Assembly: GCA_021234155.1 (NCBI GenBank)
Contig: JAJEKV010000145.1
Location: 1-64,000, forward strand
Reading direction: 5' to 3'
DNA length: 64,000 nt
DNA from: Isoetes taiwanensis
Taxonomy: Eukaryota > Streptophyta > Lycopodiopsida > Isoetales > Isoetaceae
How positions within the stretch are numbered: position 1 is the stretch's first letter; each line of letters starts with the position of its first letter. The position numbers were made by a program, and so were the translations under genes. Shown piece after piece: positions 12,101-61,885 of the stretch. The notes below the pieces were generated by a model. The model worked only from the letters and a program-made list of their open reading frames with translations. It did no database searches and was not told the DNA's origin.

Positions 12101-12104
12101 TTGA

Positions 12105-15042: not shown

Positions 15043-15049
15043 TGTTGTA

Positions 15050-15061
15050 GCTCTGATACCA
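15050..15061 (-). promoter_or_regulatory. Primer binding site for initiator Met-tRNA
   Basis: In element sense TGGTATCAGAGC follows the 5' LTR end (CCTATCA) after one base. It is complementary to the 3' end of plant initiator Met-tRNA, the usual primer of copia elements. Confidence 0.92.
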
Positions 15062-15062
15062 C

Positions 15063-15633
15063 TGATAGGAATTGAGCAAAATATATATTCTTAATTCAAA
15101 TGTCCAGCAAGATTTATCATTAACAACTTGACTTAGCAAGTAATAAGAGAGCCAAAATATGGTCACTAATCCCTTAATACTTATTAATCATAGTTCAATC
15201 AATCTGTAACATAACCGTTACTATGCCCAACACTCCTGGCCGCTCACACTGCTCCTCACAACACACTGATCTATATATCACCCACAGTATATGAAATCCG
15301 ACGGTTCAGGTGATGATATACTTTCCAAAAATGTCGTACAGGTGTCAATCATTGCCTTTGAATTGTTGAAACCTAACCGGGTTTCATACGTATTCTTTTC
15401 ACGCGTATTTTATACGGCGGAAAGCGTATGGGGCGCTGATAGACTTTAATCGCTTTAAAATTCAATTCTACGCACCTCAAAGTAAGGCAGCACCCCTTTT
15501 TCATTTTGACACTCTGCACTTACATTCACTGCCACTGCTTCTCATGAATGCATGTACAACTCATAACCTACTGCCACTGCTTCTCATAGGTAGAGTTCAA
15601 TGATTTACACGACTTATATGCTGAAACCTTTCA
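15063..15633 (-). repeat. 5' LTR of copia C
   Basis: 571 bp, same ends as the left LTR. A TATA-like GATATATAGATC lies in element sense near 15,270. It is adjacent to the primer site and to the AGAAC target duplication at 15,634-15,638. Confidence 0.95.

Positions 15634-15765: not shown

Positions 15766-15794
<29 letters not shown>
15766..15794 (+). repeat. Poly(T) run at the left end of the 2.9-kb array
   Basis: Twenty-nine Ts after CTGATTCTGG, joined directly to the first base of unit 1. Telomere-like CCCTAACCCTA occurs just before (15,745-15,755). The other unit junctions have only 5-8 Ts here, so most of this run belongs to the target or the insertion process. Confidence 0.85.
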
Positions 15795-15798
<4 letters not shown>

Positions 15799-24480: not shown

Positions 24481-26546
24481 AATTATGACTATGCCTATTC
24501 TATGTGATAGGAAATTTCTAGTTATCATTTTGAGTTGTGAACTTCCCTTGGATATTATATGCATAGTTCAAAATCACATGCTCTAATGGCATTTATAGTA
24601 TGAGCCACTATCCCAACGTATGCATTTATTTATAAGAAAGAGAGATCCACTTTTTCCTTATTAAAAGTTGCATAATACATGCAAGTTGTATAATACATGC
24701 ATGTTTGCCACTTGTTGACCATTTCTTTTGCATGCATTTCCAAGTGCATGGAATTCCAATGGGGTTACTTCCACACAATTGCATATGGAAGGCAATTGCA
24801 CGTCCCCCTTTTTTGCACAGGTATGGAAAATCATATGCTATCTTTATTTATGGCTTTTCTATTGTCTTGGCCGATCACAGGTGACAATATCTCACACATA
24901 TACCTAAACGTAACCCTAATGCTTAGGGTTTTCAGATTTCTTCAAAGCGGCTTCCTAATACAGTGCCGCCATATGCTGTTATCCTCTATTCTCCCTTATT
25001 CTGATTGCTATAGACCCACAGAAGCATCTGGCTATGATCCTCTCCAAGCAGCATTGAGGTCCTTATCTGTTAGAAGACTGAGCTCTTAATCTGTCCTCTT
25101 CTTATTTTTGCAAGCATTGTTGCTTATATAAGCACTACATGCATATCTCTTGTTTATGTAAACCGAACTCTGGCAAAATGAACACCTTATGCTTCTTTGG
25201 CCAGAAAGAATGCCGCTTGTGTGATGCTGGACATATATCAGGAAGCAAAAAGGAACTGTAATGGTGCTCACCGTTTCTGAAACTCAACAAGAGGACATCT
25301 TACAATAAGGTAAATTGGATATTTCAGTTTATATTTTCAATAAACAGGTGCATTTTTCTTAAAGCTTGATGCTTTAATCATGGATAAATGGTTCTTACTT
25401 GCTCTTTAAAATGGTAACATCCTTCTAAACCAGTGGTTTGGATGTTCATGCTAATACTTCACTGGTGTTCTTTCTTAAACATACATAATTGGTTCACTTG
25501 TCCCTTCCATGTTTCATATTTTCTAAACTAACAGGGCAAAAGGTTACAAAGGCTGATCGGCTATAAACCGAGAGGCTCCATTTGTACCTTTTGGCCCTTC
25601 ATTCATTACCAAGCCTATTGCTAATGATTTGATGTGGCTGCAGGTACCGGACCTCTCCTGCTTTTGTCGCTGTTTTGTGTTTGTTAGTTGGAATACTGAA
25701 AATGGAAGTGGAGTTAAGCTTTTACAACATGCAGTCTGCTATTTTTCTACTGTGGAAGAACAGTCTCCATAAATCATGACATAAAGTTACTCTTCAAAAC
25801 TTGTAAAGGTTTAAACAGGTTGGGTATGCTCTGCTCTAGTGAAGACATTTTCATATGGTCTCTGTACATTCAAGCCATAGTTTAATCTTGCTGAAAATGC
25901 TTTCTTCATTGCCATTGCTTTGTTTGCAGCATTACTTGTAGCTGCATTACTTGTAGCTGATGTTAAATATTTTCCTCTCAAACATTATGTAAATTTCGTC
26001 CATACATTACTGGATTTATGAGAATGCCTTCTATTATATAGTCGGTCTAATAAATCATGGCAATGACATACTGATTGGTTGCTGCTAAAATAAGTTACAA
26101 AATATTTTTCTTCTTGCAATGATTATTCCCTTGCATGTGCAATTTATATTTCCAGTAGGCTTTCTTCAGTTTTGTCCTGATTTAATGACTTTTAATGACT
26201 CTAACGGTACTTGTCTACATTTGACATTTGAAATACAATCAATTGGGCAGTTTGATTCTTTGGCCTAATCTCTTTGGCCTAGATTGTTATATCAACGGAC
26301 AGAAATTTCTTGGGCTTGTAAAAAGCCGAGTTTATAAATAATAGATAATCTGGTTCAAAGGTTATTCTTGATTTATCTACTCACTGGTTTTGGTGATTTT
26401 TTGTCCAAAGGTTTTAGAGGCTAAAGGACAATAAGTACCAGATAATTCTTACGTAAGTTTGAATCTGGGTTGATAATACAGTCCTTGGGATTGACCGAGG
26501 ATTGATGTCCGACCTAGGATTCTAGGTTTGGCTGGGTTTTTTTTTT
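24481..26546 (+). repeat. Array unit 4, pLTR part only
   Basis: Contains only the first 2.06 kb of the unit and ends GGGTTTTTTTTTT before unrelated TATAGGTTAG. It has the largest number of CTG/CAG trinucleotides at sites where the other copies vary. Telomere-like palindrome at 24,912-24,930. Confidence 0.9.
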
Positions 26547-29993: not shown

Positions 29994-30542
29994 ATGGACA
30001 AAGGTAAGAAAGTTCTGGTGGATTTAGATGGGGAGAAGAAGGTCGGCAAGAAGCGCTCCAGCTCTGGCACTCCAGGCAACCTCACGGTGCCATTCAATCC
30101 AGATCTTGAGGAGCTTAATCCCTGGTGCATCTGCTTTGACAGTTGTATGTGCCTAAGCAGAGGTTTGCCATCATGCATCAGTTGCGGCCGTGTCCATTGT
30201 CTTTACTGTGATCGGATATACCATGCACAGTCCATGCGAGATAGTGGTTATACCCTGGGATTGCTGGAAGTTCTCGGAGTATTAGGCGACAAGAACGACT
30301 CAGTGAGGCGCCAAGACATGGATCGAACTATGCAGTGCTTCAACAGATTACAAGTTTATGCTGCGATACAAAGGTCATCGAGTTATCAACATAACCTTTT
30401 GGTTTGTGATTTCGGGAAGGTCTGTATCTACTGCTGCGAGAAGAACCCCGTTGATTTTCTGTGTAGGGCATATATGGGGAGAAATCTGGAAAAGATTAAA
30501 AAGATCGGGGAGCCGTCCTCAGAAAAGAAGCCAAAAAATTAG
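29994..30542 (+). CDS. Intact 182-residue Cys-rich protein, unknown
   Basis: ATG at 29,994 is the first in-frame start after the TATA-like box. The N-terminus is Lys-rich (MDKGKKVLVDLDGEKKVGKK). From residue about 40 there is a dense Cys cluster, CICFDSCMC, then CISCGRVHCLYCDRIYH, resembling a zinc-binding fold with CX2C pairs, and near residue 145 another pair, CIYCCEK. The C-terminus is again Lys-rich. There are no membrane segments. I do not recognise the family. It precedes a degraded LINE on the same strand and may be its first ORF or a host-derived gene. It is the longest undamaged non-pol frame in this part of the window. Confidence 0.5.
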   Translation: MDKGKKVLVDLDGEKKVGKKRSSSGTPGNLTVPFNPDLEELNPWCICFDSCMCLSRGLPSCISCGRVHCLYCDRIYHAQSMRDSGYTLGLLEVLGVLGDKNDSVRRQDMDRTMQCFNRLQVYAAIQRSSSYQHNLLVCDFGKVCIYCCEKNPVDFLCRAYMGRNLEKIKKIGEPSSEKKPKN

Positions 30543-31625
30543 TCCACTCAGAAAAAAAGGGGATACGTGCCATGCCTTTTCGGTCATATCTTTTTGTTTT
30601 ACTCTCTTCTGTTTTTTGTTTTTGTTTAAGATAATCCTTTGATCAAACTGTTTAGATCCAACAATGATATTAATTCTCGGGAGGCCGGCAAGGATAGATA
30701 ATTTGTAACAGCTTTTGGCTGTAAAACACTCAGTGCAGTTAATCCCGATCAGAAGGGATACAATTTTTGTCTGAAAAAATCGAGTATGGGTAGGAATGGC
30801 TGAAAAGGCCAGGAAATGTAACTGAAAGAAACAATTTCTCTTTTGAATAGAGTATAGAATTATGCAGTAAGTATATAGCTGTGCCTCAGTGTTGATCACT
30901 CTCCCCCTAAAGTAAGAACGACATATCCCTTATCTATATCTCGGAGACCAACATAATTGAACCAAATTAGCGGCCTAATGGTTGTAACTGAGTATCTCCC
31001 CATACATCTCGGAGGTGACCACATGAAACCATATAGGGTGGTACATGGGGATTTCGGGAAGGGTACATGGGGCTGGCTTGACGATAAACTATTCTACAAA
31101 CGGCTTCATTTCAGTAACAGGCACAAACTGAACGACCAACGAGATGTCAAAAATTGAACATATGGTAACATTTCTATGCAACGACTGTGAGGTATGCCCG
31201 AATAGGGGACAAAAATGGTGTATACTTAAGATTTAATAATTGACACCTATACGTGAGTAAATACAGGTATATGAAATTAAGAAGATGCACATAGCAGGTT
31301 GGCAGAAATATGACCGAAAGTAAGGAAGAGTGTATGGATAATAGGGAAACAACTCTACGGGTGGGGACCCACAGAGGGGGCAAAAGATAAGAAAGAAAAT
31401 AATACGACAAGGCATGTAAATGTACTACATACGATGTATTGAGGTAAGTATAGATATAACTGTAGAGGTGTATATGATATGATGCTAGTAAAAGTGAAAG
31501 GGTACGTCAACCTCTCTTAACCCAGGAGATGCAACAACCACAAAGGAGGGACGAACAGAAACCAGATAAATAAGGGGTCCAGGAGTAGATGGTGCAAAGG
31601 GTGGAAGGCTAAGCTATAGGACAGA

Positions 31626-31837
31626 GAGACGGGTGTCTCCGCCATACACCAGGACAGAGTGGGAAAGTAACCCACCGGCTGGTGCCGACTGCTAAGCAAC
31701 AGACACCAACTTACCCGGCCCATAAAATGGAAACAAAAAATGGAAGTGGAAAGACAGAGGTTGCCAAGTACGGGATAGTGGGAGGCAACTCCCCGACCGT
31801 ACACCAGGATAGTGAGGATCCAGTCCTCCGGTTGGTG
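31626..31837 (+). repeat. Two tandem double-hairpin modules
   Basis: Module 1: GAGAC-GGGT-GTCTC (31,626-31,639), then CACCAG...CTGGTG (31,647-31,684) with an inner GTGGG...CCCAC stem. Module 2: GGGAG-GCAA-CTCCC (31,780-31,793), then CACCA...TGGTG (31,802-31,837). Stem sequences differ while pairing is kept, which suggests selection on RNA shape. It lies in the putative LINE 5' region. Confidence 0.45.
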
Positions 31838-33264
31838 CACCAAAGTCACAAAAAACCCACGGCCAAAAAGGATACAACGAAAACAAGGCAGTTCATATGG
31901 TGCCGGAAATCACGGAATCCTGGGAATTGAATACAAATCTAAGGACCAGCCAAAAGACGCAGTAAAGAGCGGACACAAACACCCAATAGTCGTATCTTGG
32001 ACGGGATAATTCGAAATTTGATCAAAAACCGAAAGGATATGGGGGAAAACGCCCGAACGGCTACATAAGTGAACACGATATAGTAAGCCCGCGGAAGAGA
32101 AACAGGAAACAGGAAAACACAGAAGAGAGCGAACGGCGGGAAAGGAATTCGGCGAAGCGATATAGCCACAACAATAGAAGGAAGAATGGCTAGCCAAACA
32201 GAGCCGGGGCAAGCAGAAGAACTCAAACAAGATCTGGCAGGACTTCTTGGCTCGGCCGGTAAGACTCGAGACCAGCCAAGGATGGAAGCGCCAACACATC
32301 GCGCCCAGCGCAACAAAACAAAGAAGTTTATAGGGAAAGTGGAAGAACGGGTGCGGTGGTGGAAGATACGTGAGGTGGAAATCTGAAGAGGATGGAGGAG
32401 GTGGAGAAAGAAAAGGCGGAAATCATACAAAGGTTGGTGATATTAGAAAAGAAACAAATAGATTTAGATGCGTGGGCGTAGTTTTGATAGGATTAAACCA
32501 TTACATAGTGGAGTTCAAAGAACGAGAAAGGATAAAGCATGATGTAAGGTTGATAGGGTAGCCGAAAGGCCTAACGGTAGACACGCTTCGCGGTCAATGG
32601 GCAGAAATAATGGAGAACGCTTTTTTGAACACGGAATGTGATAGTGAAAGCAACCCAAGGAGCTTGGAGAGGGAGGGCGAGACATATAAATGTAACCATG
32701 AGGGACCCGCAGCCAAGGAAAGAATCATTCACGCCTACGTGGTTCAAAACTAAGGAATGGACTCAAAGTACAAGAGGCCTTAACATCCATGCAGAGGCAG
32801 GGGTTACAGAGGGAACTGGCGAAAGTCAGAGAACTGAGTCGGGCGGGAGTACAAGCAGGGGTAAAGAATGGGAAACTATACCTCAAAAGAGGCCGAGAGA
32901 ACACACCGCAAGAACCGACAATGCAGGGGGATGGGATGGACCCACAGGATCCGAGGGGAGATGGGCACCACGAAACGGAGGCAACAAGAGGACCGGGACA
33001 GCTGAAACAGATAAGGGAAATAGCACCATCTGGGGCAATAGGACCGAAAAACAATTTCAAAGATTCTAAATACGCATACAGCTAGGGTGGGGAAACGGAA
33101 AAGAGGTCGGAAGGGACCTAGACCAGAACATAACGCTGACAAGGGAAAGAGGGGGGGATCAGGGAGCAAAAACGAGGGGACAGTTAAGAAAGGGACACGC
33201 ACTAGAACAGCAGGGAGGCAGGGGAGTACAGAAAGGAAGGAAGAAGTAACGCTCTGGTTGTACG

Positions 33265-34062
33265 GGATATCCTTGGGATGATGGAGAATGCCTACACGAA
33301 GCACGAGACCAGGATATCATATGCCTGGTAGAGACATGGGAACACAGCACAAAGAGGCTACCAGATGAACCAGGGTACACATTGTTCACGTGTTGGAGGG
33401 AAAGTGTATGTTTAGCTTTGGGAGTTGGTTACTGGGGTTATACGATGATGATCCCCGACGTGGTAGAACTTAAAAGCCTATACGTGTCTTCCACTTTGGT
33501 TGCCTTGACCGGCAGTGGGATATTCTGGCTAAGCCTGTAAAAGATGCTATTGGAAGTGCAGGGCTAGCCTGCTACATTAGGAATAGCAGTGTCAAAAAAG
33601 CATGTATTTTGGAAAATGACATTAATAAAAGATAATATTTGCTAATAGTATACTATCCACCCCAATGTGATAAACTGGAACTATTAAGCATGGGAGAGAT
33701 TGTCATGAAACACAGGGATAAGGGAATGTTGATCATAGTAGGGGATATTAACGCAAGGACGGGACGGGAGCAGGCGCAGAAAGCAGGGATAGACAACGAG
33801 AGTGGGCAAAGGGACACAGCCTAAGAGGGAAGAATGGCAACAGGACACAGTAGACGAAATGGAGATGACAGCGAGAGGAGAAACATTGATAGAGGTATGT
33901 ACAACTACAGATACAATTATATGTAATGGTCTAGGAAGATGGGAGGCTTCAGGCCAGTTCACAAGCACAAACGCTCACGGGAGCAGTATAGTGGACTATG
34001 TGATAGCAAATGAGGAAGCAATAAAGGAAATCGGAAAGATGGAGTTAGGGGAGGGGCGCTAG
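33265..34062 (+). pseudogene. LINE endonuclease domain (plus-strand LINE)
   Basis: Apurinic-type endonuclease that would nick target DNA to prime reverse transcription. Visible blocks in shifted frames are DIICLVETWEHSTK (about 33,315, catalytic Glu of the ET motif), VYYPPQCDK (about 33,650), IIVGDINARTG (about 33,730, the GDFN-type motif), TIICNGLGRW (about 33,915) and AHGSSIVDYVIAN (about 33,975, the Ser-Asp box near the C-terminus). Stops and shifts interrupt at about 33,540, 33,633 and 33,824. Confidence 0.82.
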
Positions 34063-34639
34063 AAAGGAGGGAGGGACACAGACCCATACCAAGCCAAGAT
34101 GAATGTGGCAAGGGGAAGAACAGAAGACAAGCAAGGAAGAGGCAAAACAGGCCAAAATAACAAAGCTTAAATTCGTGAGAAAACAGAGGGAACATTCATA
34201 AAAACAGTAAAAAAAAAAATAAAGGAAAAGGAATGGGGCGAGGGAATGAAGGATGAGGGGAATGACATGAATGACATCTTGGAAGAAGCAAAAAACGGCA
34301 TTTGGGAGGAGAGAAAGAGGAAGGAGGGCTATAGCATTTCTCGAGGTCAAGATGGTTTGACGAAGGCGCATAGAACAAATCGAAGGAGAGTCAAACAGTA
34401 AAAGGGACCGAGGCATACCAAGAGGAACGCTGCAAATATGTGAAAATAGGAAAAGGAAGAAAGCTCGACTCAAGAATCACCAAAGGGGATTGGGTCAAGA
34501 TCCAAAAAGAGACCTAAGGCATTTTGGAACAATATGAAAAAAGGATAAAAAAACGAAAGCTGGTACAGTAGCAGGGGAGGAGGGGAGAGGAATGGAAATA
34601 AAATAGACTGGACAAGATACCTGGAACGCCTGTACAGAA

Positions 34640-35640
34640 CAGGGGCTGCACCAATCATGGCTCCAGAAGGTAGACACAAACCTCCCTTCTCCATGGAAGA
34701 GGTGACATGGGCACTAAACAAAATGGCAAACAATAAGGCCCCGGATCTATATGGGCTAACAGCGCGTAGGAACAGAGATAGTAGGGATCATAACAGCAAT
34801 ATTCAATGAGGTAGTACATTCAGGCCTACCGGAAAGGTGGCAGTTTAATAAGGTAATCCCGCTCCATAAAGGAGGAAACAAAGAATAACCGAGTAATTAC
34901 AGGACTATTATGGTCAGTTCAGTATTCGCGAAATGGTTCGGGAAAACTTTGGATCGAAACCGAAAACATGGGCGTAAGGTGGAAGCTCGTGAGCACAAGG
35001 CCAGCCGGTTTTCACCGCAGAGTACTCGACTACGCACCATTTGGTGACCCTAAGGATAATGATAGAGCGCACAAGGGAAAGTAACAAGAAGATCATATGT
35101 TGCTTCGCGGACTTCAAGAAAGCCTTCTTCTGCCGCTGCCTAGAGACAAACTTCTACCGAGACTAAAAGGACTAAGAGCACCGTAAGGGTTAGTAGGATC
35201 AATTGCAAGGCTATACCAAAAAGGTATATGCCAAAACAGAGGGGAAGGAGAAGCCATAGAATGCACACAGAGTAAAGCAAGGATGTCCACTATCACCCAC
35301 ACCGCTTTGGGATATACACATAGATGCCCCTACAGAATTTGTCATCGAGAGACGGGGAGACAAAGGAAGCACCAATGATAGGGAAAACAAAAGTCCCAAT
35401 AATGCTATATGCGGATGATCTAGGTATGATGGCGACCAAAGCCAAAGGGATGCACGTAATGCTAGAGATACTAGAAGAATTTTGTGTGGAGACAGGGTGA
35501 CCATCAACAACCCGAAAAACAAAAATAGTGACCTTCGGTACAAAAGATAAAACACAGCCATTTAGATACAAGGGGAAGGAACTAGAAGAAACCACGTGGT
35601 GGTATATCCGGGATACGACACACATGGGGAAGTGGTCAAA
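34640..35640 (+). pseudogene. LINE reverse transcriptase (plus-strand LINE)
   Basis: Blocks in order: MEEVTWALNKMANNKAPDLYG (about 34,690; family form NGKAPGxDG), VIPLHKGGNKE...NYRTIMVSS (about 34,855-34,920), CFADFKKAF (about 35,105, motif A, where the second catalytic-region Asp position reads Phe), KQGCPLSP-like sequence (about 35,275) and MLYADDLGMMA (about 35,402, motif C intact). Multiple frameshifts are present. RT of this clade would copy its own RNA at the nicked target. Confidence 0.82.
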
Positions 35641-36299
35641 AGGAGCGGATACCGATTCCAAGCAAAGAATAGGCAATTATTACATCATGATGAATTATTG
35701 CAACAACAATAGGATCACCAACTGGGGAAATCAAAGCATACCTATTTAGCACAATAGTAGCATCAACACACAAATTTTGTGCACGGGTGTGAGACATGGG
35801 GACCGGCCTATCGAGAAGAAATGGGAAAAACAAGAAGGCATATTGAGGCAATGGCACCTGACAGAATTTCGTGAAAGACAGTACATCATTAGCAACAATC
35901 TTATACGAGACAGGGAGAAAAAGCCAATGGAAGTGAGGGCATGGGAAAGAACAATTAGGGTACCTATTAAAGGACAACAAGTTATGGGAAAGAGGACAAA
36001 CTGTCGCCACTAGCGATAGATGAATCAGCAAAACAAAGACATAAAAGAAGGCAAGGGATGGTTTAACGAATTGGCGAAGTGGACGGCAAGTATGGGGATG
36101 CAACTAAGTCAGATTATACAAGCGGACGGATGGGACGAAGAATGGACAGGCAGAGCAATGAGGAGCTGGCTGGCACTGCACACAGTGGCCTAAAACAAAG
36201 CGGCTATTAGGAACCTTCAATCCGGGGGACAAATAGGGCATATCACGCATTAAAAAGCAAAGATGTTGAATAAGAGTAACAGGGAACGCCGGGCCGATT

Positions 36300-47289: not shown

Positions 47290-48372
47290 TTAAGGGGTGT
47301 AGGGAGGCGTAGTGGAAGCCAACAAAAAGGCCAAGACACTAGGATCTTCAAGACCTAAGCCTAAGGAACGAGAAACAAGCAGTTGTTGTTGGATAGATGG
47401 CAAAACATAACCATCTTTAGCTAAATTAGAGCGCCAACGACCATGAGCCTTAAAAATTCTATCCGAGACACTCGAAGCAGCTGCTGAAGTGGCTCCTCCT
47501 CTCCTTGCTGAATGGGTACCAAAGGTACTAGCGTCTTTGCCAATGGCAGCAAGGCAAAGCTTAAACCAAGTTCTCGGGGTGGAATATGAGACAGACCCTC
47601 TCCTCAGATAACAACCATGATGTGTCACACGTATGCCCCTAATCAAATGGCCACCAGTCACACCATCCACTTCGGCGTAATTCCCCATCCTCAACAGTCT
47701 TTCCAAAAGGCCGACGGGGCAATAAGGACCAGAGAAGCGGGCAATAGAAACCCAAACACCAACACCCAACTGATCTGTCTTTGAAGAACGAATAAAAAGG
47801 CTAGCATGGGTATCCAAAATTAAAATCTCATTCCAAAGAAAGGATAGCAGCTCCTTACTGCATAGGAAAGCAACAAAGGCAATAACAATAGATGTACATC
47901 TCATAATGTCCAAAAGAGAAGCTGAAGGAGAAGCAAAATGTTCAAAAAGCTTGCGGATCATATGAGGAAGGATGGATTGTTTCTTATTAAGCGAAGGAGT
48001 GGACAATCTCTTAGCCACATCTCGAGCAAGGCCAACTAGAGGATGATCTGTAGGCTTTGAGTAACCGACAAGAAGGTGATGAAAAGCAACAACAGCAATG
48101 GTCGTGCTGATACGAGCTAATGGATTAGAAAAGGAAGTGAGCAGCAAAGTGAGGAAAAGGCAAACAGTGGAAGGCTCCGCAGGTAGGAAAACCAGGTTCT
48201 TAATCTTGCACCAATCCTTAAAAAGGTTCCAAACATGTTGATAACCCCTCAAAGTACTTTCAGATCTAGAAGACACCAAAAACTTTTGAAAACAGCTCTT
48301 CAACTTAAGCAACTCATCGTCGCCACCCAACGTTAGCCAGAACTCATGAAGAAAAAACATCTGCAAGAACAC
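47290..48372 (-). pseudogene. Tyrosine recombinase of the DIRS-like element
   Basis: 360-residue open frame, the longest intact one in the element. It has an N-terminal core-binding region (SESTLRGYQHVWNLFKDWC, residues about 35-55) and a catalytic domain. HSARRGGATS (the H-x-x-R box), FKAHGRWRS (the His/Trp position) and KDGYV (nucleophile Tyr) are present. The first catalytic Arg, expected in the phrase FLRxxEL, reads FLCSKELL. Cys by a CGC to TGC change would inactivate the enzyme. This enzyme would integrate circular cDNA without an integrase. It could be incomplete at the N-terminus. Confidence 0.88.
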
Positions 48373-48452
48373 AACTCACCTAATTAGTATTCACAAATCG
48401 TAACGCAATAATAGGACTTGTCCGCTTCCGACGCGACAACTTAGAGGTTGAG

Positions 48453-49775
48453 CTAGGTACAAGACCTTCCACCCGCAGGGAAATACAAGTGGTCTACAAT
48501 CTTCGAATCCCATTCTCCAGCATCATCGTGTAGGGCTGGCCACCAAGGAGCTGATTCCCAATGAAAGACCACCAGGGTGCAATCGGCTTTGCAGGCTCTA
48601 AAAATGCAAAAGCTTTGAAGATCAAGGCTGGTGGAGGCAAGCAATAGTTATTTGCACCATTCCAAGACTGAGAGAAGGCATCTGGAGGGCAAGGGTCCCC
48701 TGGGATAGGTGCCAACAGTTGAAATTAGGTAGGAGATGGTTGTCTAGATTGGCAAAGCGATCCCAATCATGGGGTCCCCAGGCTAGGTCAATGATGCAAA
48801 AAACCTCAGGCATCATAGTCATCAAAATCCTTCGGCCAAACACTGTCATGAACGACGCAATCATACCCAAGAAAGAAGCAAATTTGCGGGTAGACACCTT
48901 AGACTCCAAGGAAAGCGACTTGGCCAAATCCAAAAACTTCTGACGACGCTGTGGTGCAATAGGCAAGAGTCCTGACGACGAACTGACCATAAATTTTAAG
49001 AACTTCACTTCAAAGGAAAACTCAAGTTGACACTTGTGCGGAGCAATGACAAACCCAGCAGAACTAAAAGCTTGGAGGACAAAAGCACGCGAGAAGTAAA
49101 AATGTTTGGAAGCCACAGCAAAAATAAAGTCATCCACATAGGGAATACAACGAACTGAATTAGCCCTAAAGTGTTTTACTATTTGACGGATCAATTTTGT
49201 GAACACATAACATGCAGTAGATAGACTAAAAGGGAGGGCTGTGAACATGTATGACTTCCCCTGAAACTGGAAACACAAGTAAGTCCAAGATGATGGTTGC
49301 ATAGCCATATGGTGATAACCTGAATGAAGATCTATGGTAAATAAGCCATCATCCATTCTCAAAACCACTGGTAACTCGTTGATAGTTTCATATTTTAAGG
49401 TCTTTTGTCGAAGAATTGATTGATATAATGGAGATCCAAGATTAAGCGAAGTTTGTTACCTGCTTTAGGAACTACACCTAGGGGAGAGTTGATGAAAGGG
49501 TTGGAAGGAGATTCAATGGCCGCACCAGCTTTAATCAAGTCTTGAATGGCAGAGTACACGAAAGAAGAGTGTTGTGCCACGAGAGGTTTTGACCAAGGTT
49601 GCGAAAGAGGGGAATTTAGCCAAGGGAGTTTGTAGCCATTTTTTATCCAATCCAATACCATAGAGCTATTAGAAATTGATTGCCAAAATGGAAAATGATC
49701 TCTTAAGCGAGTGCTAAGGGAATGGGTCGAGGCACTGGAAAAAACATTTATATTTGGACACAAACAAATCATCAC
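48453..49775 (-). pseudogene. RT-RNase H of the DIRS-like element
   Basis: Frame 49,775-49,395 has WIKNGYKLPW, IESPSNPFINSPLGVVPKAG and KLRLILDLHYIN, the DIRS-type RT opening. Frame 49,368-48,622 has DDGLFTIDLHSGYHHMAM (motif A), FTALPFSLSTACYVFTKL (motif B) and CIPYVDDFIF (motif C, YVDD at 49,129-49,140), then an RNase H region. Frame 48,715-48,494 has DAFSQSWNGANNYCLPPPAL, typical of the RNase H end of DIRS/Ngaro. Shifts near 49,385 and 48,640 break it. Confidence 0.88.
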
Positions 49776-52974: not shown

Positions 52975-53009
52975 CATGGCAATGGTTTTTTTTTTTTTTT
53001 TTTTTTTTT

Positions 53010-55095
53010 ATTATTATGAGGATATCTCAGATAATGGAAGTAATAATTGAAAACCATTACTCTATCTAACATGATTGGACAAATATGGACATATGAGGTA
53101 ATGGTATAAGGAGTATAGTTTTCCCAAATTATAATTAAAAATACAAGAAAGATAACGTAATGGTTTATTCAAAATTGTCTTTTAACCTTTTAGGGTTATG
53201 CATGATCGACATCTACCATGGCCGGTATCAAGGAACGGCCACAGATGAAGGCGTGACCTCTGTCCGGCAATAAGCTGCTCACAAATTCCGTTTTAGGTAT
53301 GTTCTTTCTCTGCTGGAAACTTAAGGACACAACTTAAGATGTATGGGAGATGTCTAAGTACACGCCATATTCTGCTATAAATATGTGCATGTCAATCCAT
53401 TCGGATGGCCCTTCCTGTGCTTCTGTCTTGGTGAGGGAGAGACGCTGGATCAGATGTAACTATTGGTTAATGGGTAGAAAGAAGGGTGATTTAAACATGG
53501 CCACTAGGAAGAGGCTGGAGTTTGAAAGGGAAGCAGGGCCAAAGAACAAGAAATTGTTCGATTTTAGAAGAGCAGCCAAAGGCCCCAGGCGTAATAACAA
53601 GAAGAGTTCTTCAATCTCACGAAATGATGTTAGTAATACCAACATCAAGGAAGGGGAATGCTAGCACCAAAGCCGCTGAAAACACTGTGCAAGAGGTCGT
53701 GCAATCAAAGAGGTTGAGACTTCTCACAAAGAACCGATCCTATGAAGGCACCAACCAACTCATCTTTACAATTGGGAGCTCTCCAAAAATCAAGACCATT
53801 CGTGTTTTGGGTTTCTTCCTTTTATTTATACTTAATGAGTAATATAGACTTAGATCTAGTGATCTGCTTATGAAAATGAATAAAGCATGAAATATTTCTG
53901 TCATCTTACATTCTGCTTTAACTGGATCTGGTATATGACCATGAAAAGCTGCAGTCTACAAACTTGTTGCCTAAAATTGTCCAGATCTGAATAATCCAAA
54001 GGGTTTTTAGGTAATAAAATGTATTGAGCCTAATAATGCATTCTTTAATTTGCATTTGATTAAGGTTTTATTCCTAATTATGAAGCAGATCTCATGTTTG
54101 TTTGACCAGTTCAAGTTACATACGTCTGGCAGGTGTTAACCCATTATATGGACTAAGATCTGGCATGAGATTGATTAGATGATATAAACCTGCTCGTATC
54201 ACTTCGATAGGATAAATGCGCAAGGTTAAATGATCCATGTTGTATATATAGAAATAGCTAAGGTTAGATAAGCCTTGGTAAAATAACATGGTAAATGGTT
54301 TAGCAGAATATACCACTGGACTAAATAAGTAAACTCCATGTGATGGTGTTTAATGGACAGAGGTCTGGATTTACTGCTAGTAATTTGATTTTCAGTTGAG
54401 CAGCATAGCACAAGGGGCTGGCCATAAACTAATGGCAATCATGAAGTAAGTACATGGGTAACTTCAAGTAAAAACTCACGATGGCTCTAAGGTAAGGGAG
54501 CATCTGAGCATGAAGGATCTGGAAATGTAACTAAATCTTGCCTCACTGTTTTTAATACCAGTAGAACTTGGAACTATTCACATGCACAGTTATGTTTTAA
54601 TACATTGTGGCATGGTAAAGGGGATAAACCCAAGAAAACCTATAGCTTACCTGTCAGTTCTGCCTTAATTACCCTACCCTGGCTAATCTTTGGCTGTTTA
54701 ACTGCAGGTAACCAGGTTTTCTTGTTCCATGCTTTGATGTTTCTACTTCTACTTAAGCTATGGTTCAAACTACAAGCTATCAAGTAAGCATGTTCCATAA
54801 GGAGAAATTCAATGTATGAAAGTCACCAGAAACATGTACGCTTTGGAACCTATGTATACATTCGATGGGATACCTCATTGGATACAATCATAAGGTTTAA
54901 TGGTTAAACAGTTTGATTTTTTGGAAATATGTGTACCTTTGAATTTATCCAATATCTGGAATTTTAATCTAACTTTATCTTTGGCCTAGGAAATTTGTCC
55001 TGTAGATTTTCTAGGGCTGCAAATTGCAGACTTAATTTTTCTGTAAGAATTTTTAAGTTTGGGAATCTGGAAACAGATTGTATAAGGGTTTTTTT
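53010..55095 (+). repeat. Left pseudo-LTR of the PLE
   Basis: Matches 59,121-61,213. Differences concentrate at CWG sites, for example CATCTGAGCATGAAGGATCTGG here against CATCCGAGCATGAAGGATCCGG there. It contains TTTTAGGGTT, one plant-type telomere heptamer (53,187-53,197), and an ORF (53,350-53,842). Confidence 0.92.
53350..53842 (+). pseudogene. Basic ORF in the left pseudo-LTR
   Basis: Starts MSKYTPYSAINMCMSIHSDG and contains the basic stretch RKRLEFEREAGPKNKKLFDF. After a shift near 53,640 it ends GFFLLFILNE-stop. The copy in the right pseudo-LTR (59,463-59,957) encodes the same peptide with shifts at other places, so a consensus of about 165 residues is likely. Rich in Lys/Arg and Ser, possibly a nucleic-acid-binding first ORF. 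No known domain was recognised. Confidence 0.5.
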
Positions 55096-55191
55096 ATCTT
55101 AGACTCAGCTTTCTAGTTTTACTAGAGACCAAGATAAAGTTATATTCTTACAGGATTTGTAGAATGCTAATTATTTGAATAAATTTTTCAG

Positions 55192-56220
55192 GAACTTCCA
55201 AAGATAACTGAAATTGAAGCTAGTGATCATTGGATCAAGGAGCTAGTACTCTTCAAGTATAATGAGTGTGGCATTGAGAGCCCCAATATTGCAGTGCAGA
55301 CCATTTTGGCCTGCATTAGAAACAAAGAAATTCATGAGTATATCACTTTCAAAGAATGCAACCTGGTGGACAAAACAAGATCTCCAAATACTTGGTTGGG
55401 CTTCAAATTACCGGTTCAAGTTATTCTCCTTTCCAAGAAGGCAAATTTCGAATACAATAAGTGCAAAGGGGCTATCCTGGAAGTCTATAACAACATCAAT
55501 AGTATCCTATATCAGAGAACATGCCAAGAGGATGACATTGCTCGTAATTTTATGAAAGGTCTTACTGCCTTAGAGAAGGGTAATGGTATCCCTAACTCAT
55601 TTCATTCTGCTAATGAGGATAACACCTGAAACGTAGGATCTCAATGTCTTTTTCTCCGATAAAGATCTCTTTATTGGTGACCACCGCTAATACCAATTGA
55701 AAATCCTCAAGATAGCCAAGGCACTCTGGAAGAGGTGCCTAATCTCACATTAGGAAATTCCTCTTGTTTCCCAATCATTATTGAACAATCTGTTGAATGT
55801 CTAGCTGCTGGCTATGACCACGCTATTTGGAAAAGTCAAAATTTCGGTGCCCTAGCTCCAATCAACTCTGACACTTGGATTGCATTAGCAGGGATCACTA
55901 AAGATGAAATCAGCAAGGCTAAAACAACTGCAGTAAAGTTGGAGAAAATCTTTACTTATATTAACCCTGGGCTCCCGTTTGATATGACCTTTCTTGATGA
56001 AGTATGCAACAAGGACCCTACTATTCAACTGTGCCAGAAGGGCCACATGGCCTTCCCCGGGGAAAGAAGAGATGATTTTTTTCCTCAAAAGGATGTAGGC
56101 GCACTCATGGGCCATATTTCAAGTGCAAATGCTTCAAGAACAAAAATCTACATGCATGTGGCATTATTTGGTTTGACCAGTAATCTGGTACTTATTAAAC
56201 CATATGGAGTCAGTTTATGA
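55192..56220 (+). pseudogene. PLE upstream ORF region, unknown protein
   Basis: After AATTTTTCAG (a plausible splice acceptor at 55,191) an open frame begins ELPKITEIEASDHWIKELVL and runs to 55,629. A second frame, 55,735-56,220, encodes FPIIIEQSVECLAAGYDH, WIALAGITKDEISKAKTTAV and CQKGHMAFPGERRDDFFPQK. They are probably one protein broken by a shift at about 55,630-55,735. I recognise no domain. The position is N-terminal to the RT, and the protein may be a PLE-specific extension or a separate ORF. Introns inside PLEs are known, which makes the acceptor credible. Confidence 0.55.
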
Positions 56221-56394
56221 AGAGACTTCCCTATTGAGAAAATGGTGATCATCACTAAACTCCTTAATAATGCACTAAAACCCTCTGTTATTAAGATTTG
56301 GCTTTATCCGAAGTCGAAAAAACTATGGTGGAAATGACCATGATATATCTTTGATAACTCGATACCAATCTGAAAGCCCTCTATGGGAACTCAA

Positions 56395-57060
56395 GGATGG
56401 CGGACATAGTTGAAAAAACAGTGAAACCTATCTCATTTCTGCTGGATAGTTCAGATTTCACTAATAGAAACTCTATGTACAAGAAGACTAATATCAAAAG
56501 CAGGAATACTAAACCTGCTCCTAAAGTGGTTTTCAAAATGGCGCCCAGAATTACCGTGGATCCTACTTTGGCTAAATGTAATCATTGCCTGAGTTGTTTG
56601 CTAGTCTCCCGACAGTGATACTATCATCAAAGGTGGCAATAAAGTTATATCTCTGGATGACAATACACCCCCTGATATTGAACAAGTTGAACAGACTCAG
56701 TGAGAAAATGAAACAGTGTGACATTAGTCACCATATAGCATTTGCTTTGATATAATAGAGCTTCTATGCTCGTGCCATATTGTAAAACTTTTTTGACAAT
56801 ACTTATATAATGACATCTTTTTGGCCTATAGCTTAATATGTTTCAGTTTAGCTAATATAGCACGTTTTACTAACTATTCTGTTCATGTAGGAAAATAATG
56901 CACATACCAGAGTCATCACCATGGATATCAACAGAAAAAGACACTTGAAGTCTAACAAAGAATCAAAGGACAAGAGAATAGTACATCTTACTTTCCTGTC
57001 TAAATCCTTGGAAAAAATGGATGTCGAAAAAATATTTTACACAAATATTGGGGAAGCACT
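56395..57060 (+). pseudogene. PLE linker region before RT
   Basis: Short frames: MADIVEKTVKPISFLLDSSD at 56,397-56,618 with a Cys pair CNHCLSC, and about 56,900-57,070 encoding the basic stretch MDINRKRHLKSNKESKDKR then VHLTFLSKSLEKMDVEK. An AT-rich gap (56,720-56,895) with GTAG-like ends (TTCATGTAG at 56,890) may be another intron. Low coding quality. Confidence 0.4.
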
Positions 57061-57072
57061 CCAGACAAAGTA

Positions 57073-58971
57073 ATGGATTTGGTTGATAAAACTACATTTG
57101 CCTGGAGATACATTGGGCAGATAAAGGACAGAGTATATAAACCTTACTCTATATTTGCTGAAAACAAAAACATAAAATGCCCGTGCTGCAATCCATTTCT
57201 TGCAAAATACATTGACCCTAATATAGGTCATGTGAGAACTACAGATCTGGGAGTTATCCATTGCAAAAAATTAAGAATGGCGTTTGCCAAGGGGCTCAAT
57301 CATATCCCTGATTGCAGCTTTAATGTGCAGAGTTTTATGGAGGATTTTGCTATGCTATGCCAGCAATTTTGGGAGGTTCATAAATATGATACTTTGGACC
57401 TGACTGACTCAGATAAGGAAAACATTACTTCATTACTGATGAAATATGCACACATGGAAGTTGTAGAAATCAGGAGAGATCTACCATTTAGAAGATTTCT
57501 GTGGAATGATCCTGAGGTTTGTAAAAACCTGGAATGGTTGATACGCAATTTATACATTTACGGTTTGACAAAGCCGGGTAACAATCCAAAGTTCATTTGC
57601 CAAGAACATATTCTAGATATGGCCAGAAAAAGAATGAATGGGGATGACTTTGAGAAAATAGCAGATGAACCTGACAGCATCAAGATGCAATGTAAGGAAT
57701 ACATTCAGAAGATGTTAACAAATGCAAAATGCTGCCATAATAAACTTCCATATCTGATGGCAAGTTTCAAAGCACACAAATCGGAATACAGATGGTTAAC
57801 TAATGCATTTGAATCCATCTTTTCAGAGATGGCACAATGGATCACCGCCATACTCAACAACTTCTTGGAGATCCGGCCTCTACTTTGCAAATGCACTCAC
57901 CGCACCCTACACTATTCTACAAAGGCAAAATTAATGCATCATGGATAGTAAATTCTTCCTATGATGTAATCCCAACCTTCCATGCGAGGATTGATAATGT
58001 ATTCTCACCGACATCACAAAGTGTTATGAGAATATACCTCTTTATGGAGAAGACGGGATCATTGAAATCCTTAATGACATCGAAGGAATTAGTATGGGAA
58101 CATATGAGACCGGACCAACGTAAGTCGCACATGTTAATAAAAAAAAGAAAAAGATGGAGACTTCAAAATTAAATGGGAAAGACACATTAAAAGGATATTG
58201 AAAAAAACATGCTTTGGTCCATTGTGAAGAAAGATGACTTCAATGAAATAAATGCATGGCTCCCCGACCCACTCGCTACCTCCAATGCTGTAATGATATA
58301 TGGAGACAGAAAAAAGGCATTCCCATGGGATTCTCATGTAGCCCAAATTTTGGTGCAATCAGACCCCCGGCATGAGTTAAAATTCATGTTAAAACTTGCT
58401 CATTATGGAAGGTTTCTGGACATTAAAAAGTTCGACTATGCAGCCAGATACATTGATGACCTCAATGTTATCAATGCTAATAATATTGAAAACTTCTTCT
58501 TGGCAGACGGGGAACTTACAGTTTACAACATGAAACATCTCGGCATTAAGGATGAAACTATTTATAGGGTTGCTGACAATGTGAAGTATGGTTACATGGC
58601 AAACTTTCTCAACATCACTATTAAAGTTGAAGATAAGAATAGGGGGCTTTACTCCATCTCCAGGTATGATAAAAGAGTTAATCTACCCTTCCAAGTTTAC
58701 AAGTTTATCAAAGCCGATAGCCGCGGACCATCTTGCGTGCTCTTAAAGTAATAATCTCACAAATCATGCCCTATCTTTATGCACACTCGATCATGCCGGT
58801 GCGTACCAAGATATATACAACTTGATAATGACATTTGCTGACAATGGTTTTGGTGAAAAAGAGGTCTGCAGAACTGTCTCAAGATATCTGCAGAAAGAAC
58901 ACTTCCCTGGTCTTCTGTACAACTTTGGAGACATGGTACGTGTACTTAATGCGAAAATAGCAAAAGGCTAA
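57073..58971 (+). pseudogene. Penelope-like reverse transcriptase
   Basis: Blocks in order: CPCCNPFLAKYIDPNIGHV and RMAFAKGLNHIPDC (PLE N-terminal KGLNxxP region, about 57,180-57,315); LPYLMASFKAHKSEYRWLTN (the finger block LPxLYxxxKxHK, about 57,745-57,805); CYENIPLY (motif A region, about 58,022); GIPMGFSCSP (motif B, 58,316-58,345); RYIDDLNVIN (motif C, Asp-Asp at 58,449-58,463); NFLNITIKVED and YDKRVNLPF (thumb); then SNNLTNHAL. The end is FGDMVRVLNAKIAKG-stop. Frameshifts lie near 57,940, 58,020, 58,320 and 58,745. No GIY-YIG follows. Confidence 0.85.
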
Positions 58972-59120
58972 ATAGGTGCTGGAGATGTCTTACTTGTTAA
59001 AATATTGTGAGGGCAGGGCCTTTGCTACAAAGAAGGCCCCGCGCACCCCTTTGTCGTATGAATTGCATTAACGCCTAGGTTTGCAATTGCCCCCAAACAA
59101 CGGATGGAGGAAGGCTTTTT

Positions 59121-61213
59121 ATTATTATGAGGATATCTCCGGATAATGGAAGTAATAATTGAAAACCATTACTCTATCTAACATGATTGGACAAATATGG
59201 ACATATGAGGTAATGGTATAAGGAGTATAGTTTTCCCAAATTATAATTAAAAATACAAGAAAGATAACGTAATGGTTTATTCAAAATTGTCTTTTAACCT
59301 TTTAGGGTTATGCATGATCGACATCTACCATGGCGGTATCAAGGAACGCCACGATGAAGGCGTGACCTCATCTCCGTCCGGCAATAAGCTGCTCACAAAT
59401 TCCGCTTTAGGTATGTTTTTTCTCACTGGAAACTTAAGGACACAACTTAAGATGTATGGGAGATGTCTAAGTACACGCCATATTCTGCTATAAATATGTG
59501 CATGTCAATCCATTCGGATGGCCCTTCCTGTGCTTCTGTCTTGGTGAGGGAGAGACGCTGGATCAGATGTAACTATTGGTTAATGGGTAGAAAGAAGGGT
59601 GATTTAAACATGGCCACTAGGAAGAGGCTGGAGTTTGAAAGGGAAGCAGGGCCAAAGAACAAGAAATTGTTCGATTTTAGAAGAGCGCCCAAAGGTCCCG
59701 GCGCGTAATAACAAATGAAGAGTTCTTCAATCTTCGGAAATGATGTTAGTAATACCAACATCAAGGAAGGGAATGCTAGCACCAAAGCTGCTGAAAACAC
59801 CGCGGCAAGAGGTCAAATCAAAGAGGTTGAGACTTCTCACAAAGAACCAGATCCTATGAAGGCACCAACCAACTCATCTTTACAATTGGGAGCTCTCCAA
59901 AAATCGAAGACCATTCAGGTTTTGGGTTTCTTCCTTTTATTTATACTTAATGAGTAATATAGACTTAGATCTAGTGATCTGCTTATGAAAATGAATAAAG
60001 CATGAAATATTTCTGTCATCTTACATTCTGCTTTAACTGGATCTGGTATATGACCATGAAAAGCTGCAGTCTACAAACTTGTTGCCTAAAATTGTCCAGA
60101 TCTGAATAATCCAAAGGGTTTTTAGGTAACAAAATGTATTGAGCCTAATAATGCATTCTTTAATTTGCATTTGATTAAGGTTTTATTCCTAATTATGAAG
60201 CAGATCTCATGTTTGTTTGACCAGTTCAAGTTACATACGTCTGGCAGGTGTTAACCCATTATATGGACTAAGATCTGGCATGAGATTGATTAGATGATAT
60301 AAACCTGCTCGTATCACTTCGATAGGATAAATGCGCAAGGTTAAATGATCCATGTTGTATATATAGAAATAGCTAAGGTTAGATAAGCCTTGGTAAAATA
60401 ACATGGTAAATGGTTTAGCAGAATATACCACTGGACTAAATAAGTAAACTCCATGTGATGGTGTTTAATGGACAGAGGTCTGGATTTACTGCTAGTAATT
60501 TGATTTTCAGTTGAGCAGCATAGCACAAGGGGCTGGCCATAAACTAATGGCAATCATGAAGTAAGTACATGGGTAACTTCAAGTAAAAACTCACGATGGC
60601 TCTAAGGTAAAGGGAGCATCCGAGCATGAAGGATCCGGAAATGTAACTAAATCTTGCCTCTCAAGCTTTTAATACCAAGAGAACTTGAACTATTCACATG
60701 CACGCTTATGTTTTAATACATTGTGGCATGGTAAAGGGGATAAACCCCAAGAAAACCTATAGCTTACACCGGCCCGGCGCGCCCAATTACCCTACCCCAG
60801 CTAATCTTTGGTCGTTTTACCTGCGGTAACTGTGTTTTCTTGTTCCATGCTTTGATGTTTCTACTTCTACTTAAGCTATGGTTCAAACTACAAGCTATCA
60901 AGTAAGCATGTTCCATAAGGAGAAATTCAATGTATGAAAGCTGCTGTAAACATGTACAGTTTGGAACCTATGTATACATTCGATGGGATACCTCATTGGA
61001 TACAATCATAAGGTTTAATGGTTAAACAGTTTGATTTTTTGGAAATATGTGTACCTTTGAATTTATCCAATATCTGGAATTTTAATCTAACTTTATCTTT
61101 GGCCTAGGAAATTTGTCCTGTAGATTTTCTAGGGCTGCAAATTGCAGACTTAATTTTTCTGTAAGAATTTTTAAGTTTGGGAATCTGGAAACAGATTGTA
61201 TAAGGGTTTTTTT
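59121..61213 (+). repeat. Right pseudo-LTR of the PLE
   Basis: Second copy of 53,010-55,095. It begins after CGGATGGAGGAAGGCTTTTT and ends at AGGG plus T-run (61,207-61,231, which merges with the retrocopy tail). Telomere-type TTTAGGGTT at 59,301-59,309. Region 60,660-60,800 shows the strongest C/G-rich replacements of CTG/CAG words. Confidence 0.92.
59463..59957 (+). pseudogene. Basic ORF in the right pseudo-LTR
   Basis: Same peptide as in the left copy. Frame 59,463-59,708 has the N-terminal half and 59,715-59,957 the second half (KEGNASTKAAENTAARGQIK, then LQLGALQKSKTIQVLGFF). The single break near 59,700 falls at CCCGGCGCG, where the left copy reads CCCCAGGCG, a CAG site. Function unknown. 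Confidence 0.5.
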
Positions 61214-61231
61214 TTTTTTTTTTTTTTTTTT

Positions 61232-61870
61232 AGAAACGGCAGTAATATTATATTACATGTAAATACATAGTAATACAAAAGGACAGGGGGAAACCCTGTT
61301 ATAAAGGCCAAATTGAAAAATGGCCTTGACTCTCCCAAGGAGGATAATTACCTAAATTCAAACACTGATTAAAGGTTTTTAGGAATAACAGAATTAAAAT
61401 TATAAAAGCATTAAGTTTCACTTGTTCTGATAATCCCTGCTAGTGTACTGAAACTTCAGTTTTCTGTGACTCCATCCAAGGATATAATTGCCGAGGCATG
61501 GATGGTATATTTGAACAGCAGGTCTGCTCTATAGGAGGAGGAATCCAGAATGTGGAGGATTCACGGATCCCGGGCCCCTATACAGATTTGAAGCTTCTCC
61601 TCGAAATAAGGCTTAATTTCCTGTTTGAAAAGCCAGATATCTTCATCTTTCAATACCTGCTGTAAGGTTCGGATCATGATCGTTTCTGTTTTGACCCATT
61701 GCAGAGCTGCCAACACCTCCTGATGAGACATGGGTCGGGTATCCTCCGGGACCTCTCTGGCATGGCCGCCCTCATGATGCTTATTGACTAGATAATCTGT
61801 CAGAGACATTAGAAATAAGAAGAAAAGAAAGCATAGAACCCTTGAAAAGAGCCCAAAGCATCCCATTACA
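61232..61870 (-). CDS. Retrocopy with intact 101-residue ORF, unknown
   Basis: In minus sense the insert begins TAATGGGATGC directly after the target duplication. An ATG three bases in opens a 101-codon frame ending at 61,561 (IGARDP-stop). About 330 bases of 3' UTR-like sequence and the poly(A) follow. The N-terminus is hydrophobic (GLFSRVLCFLFFLFLMSL), like a signal anchor. Then come HHEGGHAREVPEDTRPMS and a charged helix-like part (VLKDEDIWLFKQEIKPYFEE). I do not recognise it. It could be a complete small protein or, if 5'-truncated, the C-terminus of a larger membrane protein. The parent gene is not in the window. Confidence 0.5.
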
Positions 61871-61885
61871 TGGCAATGGTTTTGA

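Follow-up and report, generated by a model that had tools for sequence, protein, structure and literature searches.

A Penelope-like retroelement of the lycophyte Isoetes taiwanensis, without a detectable endonuclease, that probably enters poly(dT)/poly(dA) tracts

Penelope-like elements (PLEs) deficient in endonuclease keep introns and form tandem units, and Coprina is one such element of fungi. Others are Athena of rotifers and elements of Selaginella, reportedly described by Gladyshev and Arkhipova in 2007. Telomerase combines a reverse transcriptase (RT) with a structured RNA, which anneals to a 3' end that carries repeats. The portion of PMC12477314 used here reports endonuclease-deficient PLEs from a lycophyte host and describes them as telomere-associated. 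Poseidon of Anolis carolinensis (Frangieh et al. 2024, PMC11167929) has a GIY-YIG domain and a hammerhead, and it starts at a site without homology to the DNA that is cut. For rotifer Penelope elements, the portion of PMC3846280 used here reports that cis sequences can carry foreign DNA, and that one insertion was joined by microhomology without a duplication, which we count as a likeness to the element described below.

The window analysed here is a stretch of 64,000 nt of the Isoetes taiwanensis genome, in which a sequence-only reading had proposed a plant PLE without endonuclease; the host is indeed a plant, a lycophyte. Our main reading, to which we give a probability of roughly 0.7, is that an endonuclease-less Penelope-like retroelement enters poly(dT)/poly(dA) tracts that were already in place, among them a different retroposon's poly(A) tail; we infer that priming is directed by a structured RNA, R1, and by a U7 stretch.

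Layout, coding content and classification

The element lies on the forward strand between a T24 run (52986-53009), which is its left end and the site A junction, and a T25 run (61207-61231), which is its right end and the site B junction; neither run had been mentioned in the sequence-only reading. The left pseudo-LTR (53010-55095) spans site A to site B, and the right pseudo-LTR occupies 59116-61206. The direct repeats of about 2.09 kb reported around the RT are confirmed: 53005-55095 and 59116-61213 align with 96.3% identity over 2110 columns, far above chance. They are parts of a tandem unit of about 6.1 kb, and longer tandems occur at other loci, such that these long pseudo-LTRs arise from partial tandem units (A-B-A-B and longer). 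The ORF that the pseudo-LTRs were said to carry as their own is, in the best reading, no separate gene but exon 1 of the element's gene. Exon 1 (MGRKKGDLNMATRK...) is degenerate in the left copy (53470-53802), and in the right copy (59583-59918) it has a candidate frame whose 3' end falls at a CAG/GT donor. Exon 2, the C-terminal part of ORF1 (55192-56703), and exon 3, the RT (56891-58971), are both frame-broken in the window, while relatives have open frames of about 500-520 aa and about 690 aa, respectively. The RT blocks GIPMGFSCSP (58316), RYIDDL (58446) and YDKR (58665) are present as described, but in this frame-broken RT. Between the RT stop (58969-58971) and the start of the right repeat at 59116 there are about 145 bases, close to the 150 proposed, and internal site A (ACGGATGGAGGAAGGC followed by T5) lies at 59100-59120.

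The exon 1 donor CAG/GT is found in 7 of 10 loci. Phase-0 acceptor-like sites precede exon 2 in at least seven copies and exon 3 in 8/8. These intron-like sites, seen in sequence only, may mark introns kept in the genomic copies. Spliced mRNAs would encode ORF1 from exons 1 and 2, and probably the RT from exons 1 and 3.

Among 3178 candidate RT places in the Isoetes taiwanensis genome, many of the 126 that were scored have frames open over about 690 aa. The core RT motifs (IPMG..CSP and YxDD), in spellings that we take to be PLE-like, are conserved in 10 open copies. All 10 of 10 RT members match the RVT_1 profile at E<=1; the best match has E 2.3e-6, and the first member falls below the curated cut-off. 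Three pairs of moderate divergence give a dN/dS of about 0.09, by which the family's RT is under strong constraint. In hhalign, RT motif 4 aligns with its counterpart in the plant's own TERT at E 0.013 but with a probability of 3%, which is suggestive at most; Gypsy, LINE, DIRS and Copia pieces give no motif-to-motif RT alignment. A PDB profile search with the RT has no match at E<=1, and IMG/VR has no relatives of the element.

We find no GIY-YIG domain within 33 kb of any of the 126 scored RT matches (scoring covered 150 of the 263 GIY-YIG candidates; a domain that has diverged far could escape). In the RT protein and that of exon 2, Pfam detects neither GIY-YIG nor an integrase or LINE endonuclease. 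Among forward-strand ORFs longer than 70 aa, no PLE-type RT is seen in two GIY-YIG neighbourhoods, L035 and L036; by eye, L036 carries a helicase-like ORF. Within this scope, the search for GIY-YIG that had been suggested as a check agrees with the endonuclease-less reading. Rfam finds no hammerhead in the window, nor in four other loci (L011, L015, L017, L020); the Rfam scan gave three chance-level matches to unrelated families. By its RT motifs and its partial-tandem pseudo-LTRs, we assign the element as probably Penelope-like, without a detectable GIY-YIG. Neither the LINE pattern, in which 5' truncations scatter and a single end has poly(A), nor the LTR pattern of integrase with fixed short duplications is seen: both ends are fixed at internal T-tracts.

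The association with telomeres is not supported. TTTAGGG/CCCTAAA repeats in arrays of at least three are absent from the 228 kb of loci. Out of 33 copies, the 21 on contigs longer than 5 Mb all lie at least 345 kb from the contig end; four on shorter contigs are within 100 kb of an end, which is uninformative for telomere position. For those copies whose position is informative, we reject a link to telomeres. No attachment to telomeric repeats was seen (33 copies, 228 kb), so the element is not filed with the Athena/Coprina telomeric type.

Insertion ends and the tracts that receive them

All 11 independent insertions in which both ends could be read start at internal tract A and end at internal tract B, and are flanked at both ends by runs of T10-T34, with lengths taken from a nanopore assembly. 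This count leaves out L012, L013 and L018, whose ends are not readable; C1032 (L021, L032) is counted once with the window insertion, and C1060b with C1084. In zones chosen by position, runs of T>=11 occur in 14/20 left zones, where the run need not be the element's end, in 9/18 right zones, and in 0/47 control tiles; they are absent from 6/20 left and 9/18 right zones. The corresponding counts for A>=11 are 1/20, 0/18 and 2/47. The right ends with T10 (both gene-less cases, see below) and T11 (L019) have few T's above the internal sites; at internal site A the tract is 5-11 T's long.

Lacking a recognisable endonuclease, the element may depend on existing breaks, and T-tracts could be fragile sites at which cDNA is captured by end joining without annealing to A and B. 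Such capture predicts scattered ends. Each unit offers four to nine tracts of T>=6 (seven copies and one gene-less unit), and the same two are used in 11/11 events, so we regard this explanation as very unlikely.

Two empty-site comparisons and one nested retroposon reveal the state of the target before insertion. In the first comparison, L015 reads T23...element...T20 and the corresponding site in L037 is a T14 run; five family copies (L038-L042) carry T9-T18. In the second, L043, L044 and L045 have T9, T13 and T10 where the gene-less array is bracketed by T29 and T10. The empty sites show the T-tract only, with no other duplication. The window insertion sits in the tail of a dispersed retroposon of about 660 bp including its T-run (61232-61866, reverse strand), whose poly(A) tail, a T-run on the forward strand, received the element; the 11-bp target duplication of this retroposon, CATGGCAATGG, brackets both (52975-52985 and 61869-61879). 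These cases indicate that the T-tract predated the insertion in the three events open to comparison. C1032 (L021, L032) was considered as an empty site for the window insertion and rejected, as it carries the same insertion; for C1084, a joined-flank search found no empty site. As to duplications outside the T-runs, the 11-bp match of the window is equalled by 6 of 200 random left-flank points. Flank matches of 8-9 bp at C1060a, L015 and C1038 are equalled by 13, 22 and 43 of 200 random points, and NA, C1084, C1060b and L020 have none.

The elements could instead be moved in trans by LINE machinery, a poly(A) RNA being inserted by target-primed reverse transcription with the T-runs as its tails; the host retroposon in the window has a tail and an 11-bp duplication of this kind. 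A LINE insertion is expected to leave one tail and a scattered far end; the element has two ends fixed at internal tracts, its T-runs all lie on one strand, the empty sites have the T-tract alone, and its own RT is strongly constrained. We consider a LINE origin of these insertions extremely unlikely.

A structured RNA shared with a gene-less array

The sequence that we read as intron 1 contains, upstream of site B, an RNA structure of about 139 nt with compensatory changes, R1 (54602-54740 in the left copy, 60718-60858 in the right). R1 is a long hairpin that includes splice-like sequence, and the segment 54600-54800 folds with z -3.52. The core structure is recovered again on a sequence-only alignment, in which 15 of 31 pairs have two-sided changes. 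The covariation score is 0.313, against 0.164 for shuffled and at most 0.138 for slid alignments. R1 has no Rfam match. Just 5' of internal site B (T7, 55089-55095), and likewise in the presumed intron 1, is a small hairpin, AATCTG-GAAA-CAGATT (55064-55079), that pairs in 11/11 sequences; its variation is not above that of shuffles, and the window copy folds no better than shuffles (z -1.12).

R1 recurs in the same window in a gene-less tandem array (15.8-26.5 kb) with ends similar to those of the element. The array (15795-26536, forward strand) consists of four A-B segments in tandem units of about 2.89 kb, with internal site A tracts from 18664, 21559 and 24474. It is bounded by T29 on the left (15766-15794) and, after a different hairpin (fold of 26500-26546), by T10 on the right (26537-26546), an uneven split of T's. 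It has no ORF longer than 131 aa. R1 is found there with E 1.9e-8, matched in two of the four units (19724-19858 and 25540-25673).

We have considered that R1 might instead be a splicing regulator, a small-RNA precursor or an undescribed ribozyme of the pseudo-LTR, rather than a signal recognised by the RT. Its place inside intron 1 with splice-like sequence, its long hairpin and the lack of an Rfam match speak for such a role, and we take it as a serious possibility, though the less probable one. Against it, R1 is kept in the gene-less array, which, with no ORF above 131 aa, has no evident need for splicing control, and R1 stands upstream of site B both in the element (349 nt) and in the array (864 nt).

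The orientation of R1 bears on the template strand. An antisense transcript with terminal A's at site A could serve as template, the left T-run being its tail and the right one a microhomology junction. This possibility was raised for rotifer Penelope elements and would fit intron retention, according to the portion of PMC3846280 used here. Several site A starts read T-ATT, the antisense of AATAAA, and an antisense poly(A) RNA would also produce the T's of the left end. The R1 matches, in contrast, are all on the sense strand (32/32), internal site A has so few T's, and right ends do not scatter but always fall at site B; we find an antisense template unlikely.

Proposed mechanism and comparison with known systems

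In the mechanism that we favour, entry of a sense RNA into existing tracts, the template strand, splicing and transcription start site are read from sequence. The unspliced RNA would be recognised via its structured RNA, and its U7 at site B would anneal where the tract exposes a poly(dA) 3' end, which would prime the RT. The RT would then extend leftward through one or more units, and the poly(dT) end of the other strand could prime second-strand synthesis at any site A, on the cDNA's A-tracts. The outcome would be a full unit with a partial one, a longer tandem, or a solo pseudo-LTR. Because spliced mRNAs would contain neither site B nor the structured RNA, only unspliced RNA would be copyable, and therefore the intron would be kept.

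More tentatively, and with less than even confidence, we suggest a telomerase-like retroelement with poly(dA) as its 'telomere'. The structured RNA and the U7 template in intron 1 would limit templates to unspliced RNA, homopolymer ends would be targeted without an endonuclease, and the gene-less partner would use the same RNA in trans. If true, this would explain why Penelope-like elements retain introns. The use of other retroposons' poly(A) tails as landing sites would be an unusual nesting rule. The questions at stake are how endonuclease-less Penelope elements enter away from telomeres, which part of the RNA the RT recognises, and why introns are retained. Each can be tested at the bench in this family, whose scored RT places number at least 126 and which also provides a gene-less partner, a compact RNA that covaries, empty sites and open ORFs.

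Like telomerase, the Isoetes element is proposed to use an RT with a structured RNA annealing to a 3' end; the RNA in this case is the entire element and a homopolymer takes the part of the 'telomere', a likeness without demonstrated homology. With Poseidon (PMC11167929) it shares tandem and partial-tandem arrays, RNA-internal initiation of reverse transcription (which we infer for Isoetes), a stem loop at the initiation site (presumed in Isoetes) and a hypothesised protein-binding stretch nearby; it differs in having no detected GIY-YIG or hammerhead, and in that T7 gives its presumed initiation site a match to the target. Pseudo-LTRs, partial tandems and an intron (in one rotifer family, putative in Isoetes) are common to rotifer Penelope elements, which, in the portion of PMC3846280 used here, have an endonuclease, pseudo-LTRs of about 0.2 kb and duplications of 8-10 bp in several copies. 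With Athena, Coprina and the Selaginella PLEs the Isoetes element shares an RT without GIY-YIG, tandem units and, putatively, kept introns, and a lycophyte host has been reported for that group; those elements are telomere-associated, as far as the portion of PMC12477314 used here describes them, whereas around the Isoetes copies no telomere arrays were found, and those that can be judged are internal, in T-tracts.

The element and its coding exons

The direct repeats of about 2.09 kb claimed in the sequence-only reading were confirmed at 53005-55095 and 59116-61213, with 96.3% identity over 2110 columns, as was the short gap between the RT and the right repeat, the RT stop lying about 145 bases 5' of it. 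The RT motifs were also found (at 58316, 58446 and 58665), but not all in one frame, the window copy being broken. The claimed lack of a GIY-YIG domain is supported: none was found in the RT and exon 2 proteins of the element. PF01541 matches the genome in at least 121 places, from 150 scored of 263 candidates, and the nearest scored one is 33 kb from any of 126 RT places. The ORF taken earlier as belonging to the repeat itself is present there, but we read it as exon 1. It starts with MGRKKGDLNMATRK and, in 7 of the 10 loci examined (L009, L010, L011, L014, L015, L016 and L020), continues up to a CAG|GT junction; in L017 and L018 the frame ends before the junction, and the ORF was not found in L019.

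Those RT places come from a genome search with the RT part, which gave at least 126 matches, many in open frames near 690 aa (126 of 3178 candidates scored); 10-kb stretches around 12 of them were taken as L009-L020. The core motifs are common to ten open RTs, all of which match RVT_1 weakly, and no conserved ATG is found near their exon start. For three RT pairs dN/dS is 0.038/0.444, 0.026/0.285 and 0.076/0.828, a ratio of about 0.09 in every case; in two pairs of greater divergence it is 0.082/1.556 and 0.150/1.822, with dS near saturation. The RT exon begins directly after ...TGTAG|G in 8/8 copies printed. Exon 2 is preceded by an acceptor-like AG and ends at a near-constant position with a true stop, TGA or TAA depending on the copy; its proteins (n=6) match no convincing Pfam family (best E 0.085). 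In the simplest reading, exon 1 would have two alternative splice partners, exon 2 giving ORF1 and exon 3 giving the RT, with phase 0 at both junctions.

The genome also holds many short GIY-YIG ORFs (L035, L036), some of which may belong to Helitron-type elements, because in L036 a helicase-like ORF lies upstream (by eye).

Insertions run from site A to site B and end in T-runs

Comparison of copies shows that each unit contains a pair of internal T-tracts. Site A reads, for example, ACGGATGGAGG.AGGC then T5-T7, and site B consists of a hairpin, often AAGG, then T7. All 11 independent insertions with both ends read start at A and finish at B. Their left/right T-runs are 24/25 in the window insertion, 17/19 in C1038 (with an additional left end, T23, 0.65 kb off), 25/19 in C1060a, 20/23 in C1084, 13/15 in L014, 23/20 in L015, 18/11 in L019, 27/14 in L020, 34/16 in the L011 solo repeat, 29/10 in the gene-less array (a tandem relative without evident genes) and 22/10 in a gene-less solo repeat at C907. 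C1032 is the same insertion as that of the window and C1060b the same as C1084, each counted once; the ends of L012, L013 and L018 were left out, and one end was read in L016 (right, T17) and in L017 (left, T30). The shortest right-end runs (10, 10, 11) exceed the internal tracts by only a few T's, and in L019 the internal site A is itself T11. By eye, element ends abut other elements' ends at T-runs in L014, L019, L020 and C1038. Two left ends belonging to one family lie 650 bp from each other (G000:C1038:6593180 and 6593830), and each is preceded by its own T-run.

The whole 64-kb window has three runs of T>=13, every one an element end, and one of A>=13, A30 at 8210. The gene-less array (15766-26546, 2.89-kb units) follows the same end rules as the element, and its partial relatives include a series at about 9.4 kb spacing (C1007:5529453-5557553). 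Other features of the window are a Copia-type element by eye at 10235-15633 (minus strand), probably young because its 573-bp repeats are 99.65% identical; tyrosine recombinase-like and RT-like ORFs, DIRS-like by eye, at 47290-49455 (minus strand); and a strong AT skew, 0.17-0.40, across 6 kb at 30001-36000.

For a test by position, we took 20 further RT matches without internal stops in list order, skipping loci covered before and some that were truncated or clustered. Left zones (901 bases at the expected left end, n=20) have T>=11 in 14 cases and A>=11 in one, against 0/47 and 2/47 in control tiles of the window outside elements; these runs are counted by position, and in L061, L062 and L072 the run may not be the element end. 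Right zones (1001 bases at the expected right end, 18 of the same 20) have T>=11 in nine and A>=11 in none, and by eye a site-B-like hairpin precedes the first T-run, plainly in 7/9 and less strictly in L088 and L092. Fisher tests for T>=11 give 4e-10 and 1.5e-6, which serve as guides since the control tiles are from one window. The flanks of one insertion (L070 and L090, C623) hold mutual inverted repeats, CTGCCCGCCAC / GTGGCGGGCAG, as if the T-tract had sat in a hairpin. Short TTAGGG-like stretches stand right before the T-run in two left flanks (L070, L075).

Several sites point to T-tracts before insertion. The right flank of the window insertion is a dispersed retroposon of about 660 bp (at least 42 matches, itself included; 40 of 362 candidates scored). 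Elsewhere, copies of it (L022, L024) have T-rich runs of their own at the start, and CATGGCAATGG flanks retroposon and element together (6/200 random left-flank points matched equally well); the window element thus sits in the retroposon's tail. In L023, another element's site-B-like end is joined to the tail of the same retroposon. For L015, an empty site reading GGTTTC-T14-AG is given by the paralogue L037, which aligns on the two sides of the insertion (92% and 88%), with T9-T18 in five family copies; the element's T7 plus a duplicated T14 would yield about T21 per side, and 23 and 20 are observed. For the gene-less array, empty sites in paralogues L043-L045 have T9, T13 and T10 with flanks continuous on both sides; the filled-site T total fits duplication, yet the split is uneven (29/10). 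No empty site was found for C1084 by searching with its joined flanks.

A structured RNA upstream of site B

Within intron 1, the families share a well-conserved block of the pseudo-LTR (54602-54740), and the fold of 54600-54800 (-57.5 kcal/mol, z -3.52) is equalled by 0/200 shuffles. With 16 sources and E<=1, a covariance model built from 8 sequences found 26 matches, and with 73 sources and E<=0.01 it found 32, all in the sense orientation. The structured RNA is present in 11/12 ten-kb loci (the exception is L012), interrupted in L014 (2170-2347); the match in L092 is truncated. In the gene-less array, 2/4 units match as well, with E 1.9e-8 and 1.2e-7. The window at 27000-52800 has no match at E<=10, and Rfam gave chance-level matches only.

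The model-fitted alignment has two-sided changes in 28/43 pairs. A second alignment, made from sequence alone, used 16 of the 32 matches; those omitted were for the most part second copies, together with the interrupted and the truncated match. From it RNAalifold recovered the same core with 15/31 pairs changed on both sides, and the covariation score is 0.313 versus 0.164 shuffled and at most 0.138 slid. Because related sequences can beat shuffles without structure, more weight falls on the slid control and on the gene-less array than on the shuffles. The small hairpin before B is paired in 66/66 cells across 11 sequences, with too little variation for a covariation test, and the window's own folds no better than shuffles (z -1.12). 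Directly 5' of its T-run, the gene-less array carries a distinct hairpin (z -2.11; 4/200 shuffles equal it).

The unspliced RNA as the proposed template

By position, site B and the structured RNA both fall in the stretch from the donor of exon 1 to the acceptor of exon 2; given this arrangement, the unspliced RNA would be the sole template. Among the titles and abstracts searched, which do not include three central papers about telomeric or permuted elements, none describes Penelope-like elements in Isoetes and none links Penelope-like elements to homopolymers, poly T or an insertion preference. An endonuclease-bearing element initiates internally, at a position without homology to the DNA that is cut (PMC11167929). 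In the Isoetes element, by contrast, the proposed initiation site would match the target.
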